A stretch of DNA of 64,000 bases from an uncultured Sulfolobales archaeon (lineage in GTDB: Archaea; Thermoproteota; Thermoprotei_A; Sulfolobales; NBVN01): positions 1 to 64,000 of the forward strand of contig CALEDH010000003.1 in the NCBI GenBank assembly GCA_937949785.1. The letters are read 5' to 3'. The position numbers and the translations under genes are program-made. The notes under the pieces are model-generated. The model saw only the letters and a program-made list of their open reading frames with translations. It ran no database searches and was not told the origin of the DNA. This document shows positions 1,679 to 28,610 of the stretch, in pieces (position 1 is the first letter of the stretch; each line of letters begins with the position of its first letter).

Positions 1679-2542
1679 CTACTGCAGTATAATTGCCGGG
1701 ATACTGCTTAAGAATTTGTCTAGGTAATTAACGCATCCACGTATTGGCTGCAAGTTTTCATTAACTCTCAGAACTGAGGAAGTCACGCTATTGAAGCTTT
1801 CATCTAAGTCTAACAGTAATACGTAGTCACCTACAGATGAAAGCTCGAAGGCCCTAATCAACGCAAGCAGTGTATGTGAGGTGTTGAAGTAACCTACAGC
1901 ACTAATATACCTAGACGGTTCTAAAGTTGTATCAGCAATGCCTGCAGATCTTAAAACCTTAGAACAGTACCTTAAGTCCTTCATATTCGTAGCCACATAC
2001 TTTACCTCCCGCGGCTTAATCCCTACCCCCTCTAATAACTCTCTTAAGAACTTGGATAACATGTTAAGATATAAGTCAGCGTGGAACTCATTCCTAGCAT
2101 TCTTACTGGGTAGTAGTGGTGGTGAGTTAATTAGTGAATTACTTGAAAGCACTTCTACGTAACCTTTAGACTTACTAAAAACCATTGAAACCGATGCAGC
2201 CGCATTAATAGAATCGGAGGAGACTGCTAGGATATCACCCTCGCTAACCATCTCCTTAACCAGACCTACTAAATGGTATAAATCACTTATATCGTATTTC
2301 TTAATGCCGTTCAGCTTAAGTAGATCAGCTAATAATGCAGACTTAATGCCAATAGTTCTATCGCTTGATAAGTAAATTAGCGTTTTAATACTGCCATGAT
2401 AGCTACTTTTTAACATCCTACATGATTCATAACTCATCGTTACTAGGTCTTCATCAGGACCTAACACTGGAATTAAAGTCCCACCGTTTCCCTTACGGTA
2501 CCTTGGTATGTAAGCACACCATGCTAATATATAGAATCCCAT
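1679..2542 (-). CDS. Degenerate HMG-CoA synthase-like protein, trio A, no catalytic residues
   Basis: A 287-residue protein whose start (a WCAYIPRYR segment) and position before a thiolase and a DUF35 gene mark it as a member of the archaeal HMG-CoA synthase family, normally about 350 residues. Aligned by eye to the intact paralogue at 26001-27062, the catalytic Cys becomes Val, the catalytic His becomes Asn, and the active-site Glu becomes Asp or Ser. About 60 residues of the middle region are missing or replaced. The reading frame is fully open, so this is a diverged protein rather than an obvious pseudogene. It probably cannot make HMG-CoA. A structural role in a thiolase/DUF35 complex is inference. 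Confidence 0.75.
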   Translation of the reverse strand: MGFYILAWCAYIPRYRKGNGGTLIPVLGPDEDLVTMSYESCRMLKSSYHGSIKTLIYLSSDRTIGIKSALLADLLKLNGIKKYDISDLYHLVGLVKEMVSEGDILAVSSDSINAAASVSMVFSKSKGYVEVLSSNSLINSPPLLPSKNARNEFHADLYLNMLSKFLRELLEGVGIKPREVKYVATNMKDLRYCSKVLRSAGIADTTLEPSRYISAVGYFNTSHTLLALIRAFELSSVGDYVLLLDLDESFNSVTSSVLRVNENLQPIRGCVNYLDKFLSSIPAIILQ

Positions 2543-5067: not shown

Positions 5068-5090
5068 GTTTTAATATTAAATGGTTGAAA

Positions 5091-6101
5091 ATGAACGAGA
5101 AGTTGAAGATCACTGCGGTGACGGCCTTAGCGATCATGGCTGTAATCTACGCTGCCCTTTTTTACTTAGTGTTTAACTTAAGTTTAGGAGATGTAGTCCC
5201 GGTATTCGTTAATTCAGAACCAAGCTACTTAATACCCACTTTAAGCTCCCGGACAGCTGCGTTACTATTCCATTCTTTCTCATGGTACTTCATCCTTAAA
5301 GTTTTCCGTAAGAATTTACCACCAGTTAAGGTACTTGCAATTACGTTAACAGCAATATTCACAGAAATACTCATACCTATCGGCGGTATTACCGAGGTAG
5401 CTAAAGTCTTACTAACATCTCAGTTCCTAACGCTCTCACCTGAGGTTATTCTTTCAGCTCTTCTAATACATAGGATATTATTAGCACTGATTACCGCCTT
5501 AGTTATGGTAGTTACCATCAACGTCATTAAACCACCCCTAGATACCTTGTCAACAATCATAACACCTATTGCAGCGTTGCTTATATTAAACGTAGCAGCA
5601 CTCTTAATACCGTCTTCTCGGATGTTTGGGAAAACATTAGATAGATTGGCAAGCAGGTTTAACATATCGATGTATGATTTCTCAAGTAAGTATAAGGAGT
5701 CCTTGAAGAGATTACTCAGTGAAGGTAAGTTAGCATTGATACTTACCTCGCTTACGATATTATTAGAGAAAGTAGCTAACGGCATTTACGGAGTATATTT
5801 ATGTAGACTAATGTCATATAGTATAGACTTCTTTACATCGCTAGTAATTTTCGACTTTCTCTACATCGTTATGTGGTTATTACCGGTAGTAACTCCTGGA
5901 AATTTAGGAGTATTTGAAGCACTTCAAATAATGATATTTAAACTCCTAAATACGCCGCTTAGATTAGCTACTTTAATAGCATTAACAAGCAGAGCTATCA
6001 CCTTAATTACAGAAATACCGCTGATGATGTTATCCACCACACATCTCGGTATGCATGCTAGGCAGTTGATAAAGACAGTAATCAGTAAGAGAGAGTATTA
6101 A
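5091..6101 (+). CDS. Flippase-like integral membrane protein (UPF0104 / LPG synthase TM family)
   Basis: A protein of about 336 residues with roughly seven to eight hydrophobic helices. It carries a segment of the form PIGGITEVAK near residue 105 that resembles the conserved glycine-rich loop of the UPF0104 / YbhN family, proteins related to the membrane half of lysylphosphatidylglycerol synthase. Members are thought to move or modify lipid-linked substrates, but the archaeal ones are uncharacterised. The ATG at 5091 is preferred. A TTG two codons earlier is also possible. It follows the subtilase closely and may share its transcript. A link to surface anchoring or glycosylation is inference. 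Confidence 0.7.
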   Translation: MNEKLKITAVTALAIMAVIYAALFYLVFNLSLGDVVPVFVNSEPSYLIPTLSSRTAALLFHSFSWYFILKVFRKNLPPVKVLAITLTAIFTEILIPIGGITEVAKVLLTSQFLTLSPEVILSALLIHRILLALITALVMVVTINVIKPPLDTLSTIITPIAALLILNVAALLIPSSRMFGKTLDRLASRFNISMYDFSSKYKESLKRLLSEGKLALILTSLTILLEKVANGIYGVYLCRLMSYSIDFFTSLVIFDFLYIVMWLLPVVTPGNLGVFEALQIMIFKLLNTPLRLATLIALTSRAITLITEIPLMMLSTTHLGMHARQLIKTVISKREY

Positions 6102-26000: not shown

Positions 26001-27062
26001 GTGGTTGAGAAGGAGTTGCATGCCGGTATTATTGGTTGGGGAGCTTATATCCCGAGGTATAGGATTAAATGCTCAGAGATTGCTGAGTTATGGGGTTTTG
26101 ATCAGCCGTTGGTTAAGTCGTTGAATATTGAGGAGAAAGCTGTGGCTAATGTTGATGAAGATGCTACTACTATGGGTTGGTACGCAGCTCGTTCAGCTAT
26201 TCTTAGAGCAGGTATTGACGTTGTAGGTGAGTTAGGCGCGATTTTCGTTGGGACGGAGTCCAAGCCTTACGCAGTTAAACCTACTGCTACCATAATCGGT
26301 GATGCGTTAGGATTACCTAATAAGAAGTTAACTTCCGATATGGAGTTCGCCTGCAGAGCTGCAGGTGAAGGGATTAGGATTTCAATAGGCTTAATATCTA
26401 GTGGCATGTTAAGGTATTCCCTGGTAATAGGTTCTGACACTGCTCAAGCAAACCCTGGAGATGTGTTAGAACTTACTGCAGCTTCCGGGGCTGCTGCCTA
26501 CATCATAGGTCCTAAAGTTGAAAGTACTGCCTATTTTGAGGGGGCATACACTTACACAAGCGATACACCTGATTTCTGGAGGAGGGATGGATCGCCATAC
26601 CCACTACATGGTGAAATATTTACTGATGAACCAGCATATTTTAACCACATAGTTAATTCTGTGAGGGGATTGATGGACGAGCTTGGACTCAGACCTGACG
26701 ATTATGACTATGCGGTCTTTCATCAACCAAACGGTAGGTTCCCACTAAAGGTTGGTACTGAGTTAGGGTTTACTAAGGATAAGATACTTCCAGGCTTGGT
26801 GAATCCGTGGATTGGTAATACGTATAATGCCTCAGCACTATTAGGCTTAGCTAAGGTGCTTGAAGAAGCTAAGCCAGGGCAGAGGATACTGTTAGCAACT
26901 TTTGGAAGTGGGGCTGGTAGTGATGCTTTCAGCATCGTAACTACAGATAAGTTGCTGACAAAGGTTAACATAGCCTTAAAGGTAACGGATATGTTAAACA
27001 GCAAGATATATGTAGGATATGATACCTACGCGAAGTACAGAAAGTTGTTGGAGAGGATGTGA
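26001..27062 (+). CDS. Hydroxymethylglutaryl-CoA synthase, trio B, catalytically complete
   Basis: A 353-residue archaeal HMG-CoA synthase that adds acetyl-CoA to acetoacetyl-CoA, the second step of the mevalonate pathway to isoprenoid lipids. The active-site Glu86 (GTESKPY), Cys118 (EFACRAA) and His241 (VFHQPNGRF) are all present. It is the first gene of the trio and is followed after one base by the thiolase gene and then the DUF35 scaffold. The start is a GTG with a well-placed TATA box. Compare the degenerate paralogue at 1679-2542. Confidence 0.95.
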   Translation: MVEKELHAGIIGWGAYIPRYRIKCSEIAELWGFDQPLVKSLNIEEKAVANVDEDATTMGWYAARSAILRAGIDVVGELGAIFVGTESKPYAVKPTATIIGDALGLPNKKLTSDMEFACRAAGEGIRISIGLISSGMLRYSLVIGSDTAQANPGDVLELTAASGAAAYIIGPKVESTAYFEGAYTYTSDTPDFWRRDGSPYPLHGEIFTDEPAYFNHIVNSVRGLMDELGLRPDDYDYAVFHQPNGRFPLKVGTELGFTKDKILPGLVNPWIGNTYNASALLGLAKVLEEAKPGQRILLATFGSGAGSDAFSIVTTDKLLTKVNIALKVTDMLNSKIYVGYDTYAKYRKLLERM

Positions 27063-27063
27063 T

Positions 27064-28203
27064 ATGACTTCTAAGAAGGTTTACATCGCATCAACATCTA
27101 TGGTTAGAGTAGGTAGATACTTTACAAAGTCATATAAGGAGTTAGCATTCGACGTTGTAAGCGAACTTTTCGGAACATCACGACTTGGAGACCTAAATAA
27201 CTTAGACTACGTTATAGTGTCGAACGTGTTTAGTGATTCAATGCTTGACCAGCTTGACATCTCCGCAATCCTAGCTCAGGAGTTAGGATTAACACCCAAA
27301 CCTGCTTTAAGAGTTGAGACAGGTGAGTCAAGCGGTTTAACAGCTATTGCCCAAGCCTACGCCTTAATTAGGGCAGGATTAGCCTCATCAGTGCTTGTTA
27401 TAGGTGTTGAGAAATGTAGTGAGTATCCAACAACTGTTGTTAATAAGCATCTAACAAAGCTACTTGACTATGAGGTTGAGTCTATCTACGGCTTTACGTT
27501 AGTTAATGAAGTAGCTCTCCTTATGAAGAAATATATGAGGGAATATGGGTATAGTAGGGAAGATATGAGTAGTTGGTCAGTAAAGATGCATAGCAATGCT
27601 GTTAAGAACCCGTACGCACAGCTAAGATTTACTGTAACTAAAGAGCAAGTAGTTAGCAGTCAGGTATTATCCGAGCCGGTAAGACAGTTTGACTCATTCC
27701 CTATAAGTGACGGAGCAGCAGCTGTACTCATCACAAGCAATGAAAACTTAATAGTTGGTGATGACTGCCTTGAAGTTGAGGCGGTATACCAGGCAACAGC
27801 CTCTCAACTCAACTTAAGGGATGAACTGCTAGAACTACCAGCCACTAAGCATTTACTCAGTAAGTTATTAAATAAATGTAAATTTGATATCGGTGACGCT
27901 GTTATGGAGGTCCATGACTCATACAGCATACTTGGCTATCTAGTAGTAGAGGAACTCGGACTAGCTAGGAGGGGTAAGGCACCTGAAACGATCAACGACT
28001 TAAATAATGTTAACTTAAGTGGTGGCTTAAAGGCGAGGGGGCACCCGATAGGTGCTACCGGTGTTTATCAAGTTGCGGAGGTGTTTAAGATCCTGACCAG
28101 CGGGTTAGGTGATGTTAGACGTAAAGCGATGTGGGGTTTAATACATAGTATGTCTGCATTAGATGTTAATTCCGTAGGCATTGTGGTTAGGAGGTGTAGT
28201 TGA
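27064..28203 (+). CDS. Thiolase-like protein, trio B, nucleophilic Cys replaced
   Basis: A 379-residue SCP2-type thiolase-fold protein. The HDSYS segment and GHPIGATG are conserved, but the position of the nucleophilic cysteine (Cys87 in the paralogue at 516-1676) is Glu88 here, in VETGESSG. The bases at 27313-27336 read clearly, so this is not an ambiguous codon. Without this cysteine the usual acyl-enzyme cannot form. The protein may be a structural subunit or do another reaction. The ATG at 27064 is two bases after the synthase stop. An earlier in-frame codon would overlap the synthase by 44 bases and is unlikely. Confidence 0.85.
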   Translation: MTSKKVYIASTSMVRVGRYFTKSYKELAFDVVSELFGTSRLGDLNNLDYVIVSNVFSDSMLDQLDISAILAQELGLTPKPALRVETGESSGLTAIAQAYALIRAGLASSVLVIGVEKCSEYPTTVVNKHLTKLLDYEVESIYGFTLVNEVALLMKKYMREYGYSREDMSSWSVKMHSNAVKNPYAQLRFTVTKEQVVSSQVLSEPVRQFDSFPISDGAAAVLITSNENLIVGDDCLEVEAVYQATASQLNLRDELLELPATKHLLSKLLNKCKFDIGDAVMEVHDSYSILGYLVVEELGLARRGKAPETINDLNNVNLSGGLKARGHPIGATGVYQVAEVFKILTSGLGDVRRKAMWGLIHSMSALDVNSVGIVVRRCS

Positions 28204-28610
28204 TGAAGCTCTCAATACCTAGGTTCTGGAGAAGGAGGTTTGACTACTACTCTATTAAGATTACTGAATGTTTAGACTGCGGTAGGAAGTCATATCCTAG
28301 GAGATCTATATGCGTATACTGTAAGTCACGTAATGTTAGGACAGTGACCTCAGCCGGGGTTGGTGAGGTGGTGGCCTATACTCTAAGTTACTACAGGATA
28401 GAGGGAGAAGAGGAAAACACACCAAAAATAGTAGCTCTAATAAGGTTGGATGAAGGACCTATAATCATCGGTGAGGTAGTAGACGTTGACAAATCTGAAG
28501 TACGTGAGGGTTTAAGGGTTGAAGGAGTTTTAAGGAAGTTAAAATCTGAAGATCCGGGTGGGTTAATATACTACGGATTTAAGTTCAGACCCTTAATAAG
28601 AGATAGGTAG
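28203..28610 (+). CDS. DUF35 zinc-ribbon/OB-fold acyl-CoA scaffold protein, trio B
   Basis: About 135 residues with an intact zinc ribbon (ECLDCG and CVYCKSRN) followed by an OB-fold. The ATG overlaps the thiolase stop by one base (TGATG), so translation is likely coupled. As in trio A it should hold the synthase and thiolase proteins together. An in-frame TTG just before the ATG gives the alternative start at 28200. Confidence 0.9.
   Translation: MKLSIPRFWRRRFDYYSIKITECLDCGRKSYPRRSICVYCKSRNVRTVTSAGVGEVVAYTLSYYRIEGEEENTPKIVALIRLDEGPIIIGEVVDVDKSEVREGLRVEGVLRKLKSEDPGGLIYYGFKFRPLIRDR

Follow-up and report, generated by a model that had tools for sequence, protein, structure and literature searches.

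A shortened homologue of HMG-CoA synthase (pHMGCS) is encoded at positions 1679–2542 on the minus strand of the window, a stretch of 64,000 nucleotides from an uncultured Sulfolobales archaeon. The protein was shown, as judged from aligned residues, to be catalytically dead, and is probably a non-catalytic subunit (scaffold) of an acetoacetyl-CoA thiolase complex that arose by reciprocal degeneration of a duplicated module. Thiolase and HMG-CoA synthase carry out the first two steps of archaeal membrane-lipid building.

Two sets of three genes were compared. Trio A, on the minus strand, consists of pHMGCS (gene 1), thiolase A (gene 2; 516–1676), in which Cys, His and His are present (VEAACGSGG, HDAY, GHPVG), and DUF35 A (gene 3; 112–513), with a zinc ribbon and an OB fold. 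Trio B, on the plus strand (26001–28610), consists of HMG-CoA synthase B (gene 1; 26001–27062), with Glu, Cys and His intact, thiolase B (gene 2; 27019–28203), with Glu in place of the nucleophilic Cys (VETGESSGL), and DUF35 B (gene 3; 28200–28610). The true start of thiolase B may lie 3′ of the first ATG, because its homologues are without the N-terminal stretch. The genes of trio A follow each other with near-zero spacing in the order pHMGCS, thiolase and DUF35, which is the synthase–thiolase–DUF35 order of trio B, and pHMGCS adjoins a Cys-bearing thiolase and a DUF35 gene, as expected of a PhlA-like protein.

An earlier, sequence-only reading of the DNA described the pHMGCS frame as open for 287 codons and its operon position as conserved. 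Both points were confirmed: the frame runs from ATG to TAG, giving a product of 287 aa, and pHMGCS is part of the thiolase A operon wherever the surroundings were read. Upstream of trio A stands a frame resembling a membrane protein, divergent from the trio, both in the window (5085–6101) and in several genomes of the host family, f1 (L136: 1441–2475; L137: 2141–3175; L152: 3877–4887), and the wider neighbourhood of trio A may be conserved across this family, which includes Zestosphaera tikiterensis and several metagenome assemblies.

Homology, fold and residues of pHMGCS

The Pfam search with pHMGCS gave no match, and the NCBIfam search gave PRK04262 at 26.7 bits (E 2.6e-6), below the family cut-off of 244 bits. 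When a profile of 14 pHMGCS sequences was aligned with a profile of 11 true synthases (hhalign), the probability was 97.9 and the E value 3.6e-13 over 243 columns. When PDB sequences were searched with a pHMGCS profile, no HMG-CoA synthase was retrieved; KAS III was found at E 0.0049, and the designed PPR repeats in the same search were rejected as probable chance matches. The homology of pHMGCS therefore rests on the hhalign result, the fold and the weak NCBIfam match.

The alignment used for structure prediction contained the 14 pHMGCS rows only (window and 13 loci). From these own-family rows, AlphaFold2 gave a model of the window protein with the HMG-CoA-synthase fold (pLDDT 83.2, pTM 0.83). 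Its best VIA match was 6ESQ_J, the synthase of the archaeal complex (Z 27.6, rmsd 3.2, 275 residues aligned), followed by 6ET9 and PhlA chains (Z 26–27) and then by further HMG-CoA synthases, and Foldseek placed KAS III on top with PhlA and 6ESQ near (E 4.9e-16 to 8.0e-15). Together, VIA and hhalign assign the window protein a condensing-enzyme fold of the HMG-CoA-synthase type. The model of the distant Zestosphaera member (pLDDT 83.8) also had a condensing-enzyme fold, with a type III PKS as the best match (Z 20.6), KAS III and PhlA (Z 18.9) close behind, and no archaeal HMG-CoA synthase among the best 50 fold matches listed. As modelled, the window protein clearly resembles HMG-CoA synthase in particular, the Zestosphaera member only in general.

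For the catalytic positions, 21 pHMGCS were aligned jointly with 57 true synthases; the very diverged G003 and G012 and the partial G011 and G021 pHMGCS were omitted. All 57 true synthases had the catalytic Glu, Cys and His that define an HMG-CoA synthase; pHMGCS did not. In all 21 pHMGCS, the Cys column was a gap, with no Cys at a distance of up to 8 residues, and the His column was never His (Y, F, N, W or S). The sequence-only reading had all three positions changed, which holds across the family for Cys and His and needs amending for Glu, kept in two of the 21 members.

Compared with synthase B, the window pHMGCS is without synthase residues 27–43, 117–121, 169–181 and 206–211, the last 15 and first 5 residues, and three pieces of 3 residues. 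About 50 internal residues are missing in total, and the lost segments include the surroundings of the former Cys. Segments 117–121, 169–181 and 206–211 account for the shortened middle noted earlier; the front half had been thought conserved in length, but the 17-residue segment 27–43 is missing there. Among relatives, pHMGCS was mostly 254–289 aa long (220–221 aa in G003 and G012), and like the 287-aa window protein fell short of a full-length synthase scaffold (about 350–360 aa).

Trio A, trio B and thiolases elsewhere

The pHMGCS profile matched in 23 of the 214 genomes of the order, all in f1, and two of these matches were partial (G011, G021). In G003 and G012, a 220-aa frame was found at the same place (hhalign probability 85.5, E 5.7e-6; reversed control, E 0.64). 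With these two, pHMGCS stood alongside thiolase A in 25 of the 31 f1 genomes. The remaining six, all from genus g7, were without pHMGCS and thiolase A, gave no DUF35 A match at E 1e-15, and retained trio B; all six had a different, Cys-bearing thiolase. Since pHMGCS, thiolase A and DUF35 A are missing together, trio A has been lost as a unit, and this loss, with trio B retained, links pHMGCS with thiolase A and not with synthase B. The distribution points to an origin of pHMGCS of its own within f1. Two sets of candidates were rejected: a pHMGCS–thiolase fusion in G006 (677-aa open frame), where an in-frame TAG splits frames of 288 and 388 aa, and possible pHMGCS outside f1 (L141, L142, L149, L150, L151), which were true synthases. 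A thiolase follows the synthase at four of these five loci and is Cys-less where present.

Rate co-variation (mirror-tree) was computed for 15 of the 25 genomes, those having all four genes, with G003 and G012 omitted. The rates of pHMGCS and thiolase A were correlated at r 0.87 (partial 0.63 given synthase B), and those of thiolase B and synthase B at r 0.93 (partial 0.80 given thiolase A), in each case with 0/999 permutations as high. The partial correlation of pHMGCS with synthase B given thiolase A was weaker, 0.34 (21/999 permutations as high). This pattern agrees with a scaffold role of pHMGCS for thiolase A.

Trio B is the mirror image of trio A, a complementary defect that the sequence-only reading had missed. 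Thiolase B had Glu for the nucleophilic Cys in 30/30 f1 members (the G028 assembly is without trio B), while full-length thiolase A had Cys, His and His in 21/21, fragments of it from three further genomes showed the Cys, and all true synthases retained the Glu/Cys/His triad. Searches of the window's own genome, which is 87% complete, found thiolases A and B only (Thiolase_N) and synthase B only (synthase search at E 1e-10). Neither trio couples an active thiolase with an active synthase in one operon, the synthase being dead in trio A and the thiolase having Glu for Cys in trio B. With one Cys-bearing thiolase (A) and one intact synthase (B), acetoacetyl-CoA would be made in trio A and used in trio B, unless the assembly lacks some genes.

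Thiolase A matched 6ESQ_A at E 1.4e-73. In the thiolase tree, where deep placements are unsure (several long branches), thiolase A of f1 clustered with thiolases of families f2, f3, f7, f9 and f10 that have the Cys, and thiolase B with ones that lack it, from f4 and, with less certainty, f11. Grouping in the synthase tree was mostly by family. Outside f1, a thiolase adjoined the synthase in 20 of 29 genomes of the order, and 16 of these 20 thiolases were without the Cys (E, D, Q, G or L instead; the exceptions were G036, G049, G055 and G058). In the phylum sample outside the order, a thiolase adjoined the synthase in 15 of 19 genomes, with the Cys lost in seven of the 15 and kept in eight.

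Other arrangements were also observed. Cys-less synthase-linked thiolases (G, T, E, A or D) occurred in several further families (L197, L198, L205, L206, L208, L209, L210, L211), which suggests that the nucleophile was lost repeatedly. Genus g10 had a third synthase–thiolase–DUF35 operon with an intact Cys thiolase (L116: 613–3292 in G017; L117, reverse strand, in G028); its synthase formed a long branch of the synthase tree, and the operon was perhaps acquired from elsewhere. In two f9 genomes (L112 in G048, L023 in G057), the synthase was directly followed by DUF35, with no neighbouring thiolase, and in two f18 and two f26 genomes (L192, L193, L195, L196), no thiolase or DUF35 match was found in the stretch around the synthase. 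HMG-CoA synthase frames of about 510 aa were seen in several Thermoproteota families (G214, G218, G242, G303 and others; G038, C3: 175357–176394), a size that a synthase–DUF35 fusion would give.

Proposed role and alternative readings

The scaffold role is inferred from the operon position, joint loss, rate co-variation, fold and the precedent of PhlA. The archaeal thiolase/HMG-CoA-synthase/DUF35 module would have been present twice in an ancestor. Copy A would have kept an active thiolase, and its synthase, stripped of catalytic residues and active-site loops, would have kept its fold, because thiolase and DUF35 would still assemble on pHMGCS. In copy B, the synthase would have stayed active, and the thiolase, having lost its nucleophile, would have been kept for the same assembly reason. 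Complex A would then make acetoacetyl-CoA and complex B use it, so that channelling within one complex would be lost and acetoacetyl-CoA would presumably diffuse between the complexes. The three-subunit module would thus be kept as an assembly, though one of its two activities had moved elsewhere. Physical assembly of the complex, and its dependence on pHMGCS, are part of this proposal. Against a scaffold, no synthase-like gene stands upstream of the A-type Cys thiolase in families f2, f3 and f9, which belong to the same order, so a scaffold of the pHMGCS kind is not indispensable in general. The lost loops and C-terminal end of pHMGCS could include contact surfaces, and another thiolase or synthase could be missing from the 87%-complete host assembly; either would count against the scaffold.

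A pseudogene in decay would explain the lost catalytic residues, shortened protein and fast evolution, and such a reading may describe genus g3, which keeps only a barely recognisable 220-aa frame with a dN/dS of 0.22. Decay predicts neutral dN/dS or premature stops in relatives, and neither sign was seen. The dN/dS of pHMGCS (NG86) was far below 1, at 0.034–0.222 in 13 of 17 pairs (undefined with saturated dS in the other four) and 0.034–0.113 in the 12 defined pairs without the very diverged g3; thiolase A gave 0.033–0.112 in the same computation. Between the window pHMGCS and its nearest relative, changed bases amounted to 0.23, 0.15 and 0.52 at codon positions 1, 2 and 3 (dS saturated, dN/dS undefined). 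Frames were open in ten genera, and no premature stop was found in the homologous frames read; stops flagged inside the G005, G002 and G007 matches were those that end the genes themselves. Under simulated neutral evolution, the frame was still open in 1/400 runs at 0.25 substitutions per site, where about 7 stops are expected, and in 0/400 at 0.5, 1.0 and 1.5. The own-family alignment alone also yielded a confident fold. A decaying pseudogene is ruled out for most of family f1, and for pHMGCS as such this reading is extremely improbable. Of the earlier proposal that the protein is retained as a structural or regulatory subunit, purifying selection is thus established, the structural part is inferred and the regulatory part is possible.

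The same strong selection could have acted on a new enzyme working on CoA or another substrate supplied by thiolase A, and W8, Y11, P13, P25, D30-E31-D32, Y38, E39 and A115 were indeed invariant in 21/21 pHMGCS. In the joint alignment, however, W, Y, P, DED and T were invariant in true synthases too, so these residues probably mark the fold; with no conserved nucleophile and the segment around the former Cys lost, a new activity is very unlikely. Alternatively, pHMGCS may be a regulatory partner of synthase B that tunes the mevalonate pathway by forming a heterodimer or by competing for partners. The modelled fold, which is that of synthase B, would suit such pairing, FabH-like condensing enzymes being usually dimers according to the available text of PMC4807248, and some rate correlation with synthase B persists after control for thiolase A. 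But wherever the surroundings were read, pHMGCS shares its operon with thiolase A and not with synthase B, and the six g7 genomes kept synthase B after losing trio A, which makes regulation unlikely. It is distinctly unlikely, though conceivable, that the two half-dead trios form one asymmetric mixed complex, with pHMGCS paired with synthase B and thiolase A with thiolase B. Live sites would then face dead paralogues, and acetoacetyl-CoA would still be channelled, across the trios.

If the scaffold reading is right and the dead partners are needed by the live ones, selection keeps the three-subunit assembly itself. By losing function reciprocally, the duplicated operons provide a natural experiment that separates the structural from the catalytic roles of subunits in a well-known substrate-channelling complex. 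Where the thiolase beside an archaeal HMG-CoA synthase is without its nucleophile, as is often the case, it would be a mistake, in many Thermoproteota, to annotate it as acetoacetyl-CoA thiolase and to assume channelling. Among the matches listed from the open-licence literature searched, there was no shortened dead archaeal HMG-CoA synthase, no reciprocal degeneration of duplicated trios, and no frequent loss of the thiolase nucleophile beside archaeal HMG-CoA synthase.

Comparison with known systems

Non-catalytic partners of condensing enzymes are already a known theme, as PhlA and, in the available text of PMC4807248, PqsB illustrate. The archaeal thiolase/synthase/DUF35 complex (6ESQ) resembles trio A in gene order, and its synthase is the best VIA fold match of pHMGCS. 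In that complex, both enzymes are active and have a common CoA site (available text of PMC12329534), whereas each trio here has one dead enzyme; the synthase of the complex is also longer than pHMGCS. DUF35 joins thiolase and synthase both in the archaeal complex and in PhlABC, as far as described in the accessible parts of PMC12329534 and PMC6996347.

PqsB of Pseudomonas aeruginosa PqsBC has a condensing-enzyme fold with none of the three triad residues and partners an active paralogue (PMC4807248, same text), and the pHMGCS model matched 5DWZ at Z 24.9. PqsBC differs from trio A in being a heterodimer of two FabH-like proteins, without thiolase or DUF35.

PhlA of PhlABC from Pseudomonas protegens (5M3K/5MG5) is an HMG-CoA-synthase homologue without the catalytic Cys and Glu; the whole operon is required for activity, and acyl transfer uses residues of PhlC only, as stated in the available portion of PMC6392133. 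Like pHMGCS, PhlA is a dead synthase homologue in an operon with an active thiolase-like enzyme and DUF35, with which PhlA also forms a complex, and the two folds match at Z 26.1. PhlA is of full length (362-aa chain), whereas pHMGCS is without several loops, and PhlABC acylates phenols, whereas the product of trio A is most likely acetoacetyl-CoA. By analogy, the role of PhlA fits pHMGCS, as the scaffold on which thiolase A and DUF35 would assemble.
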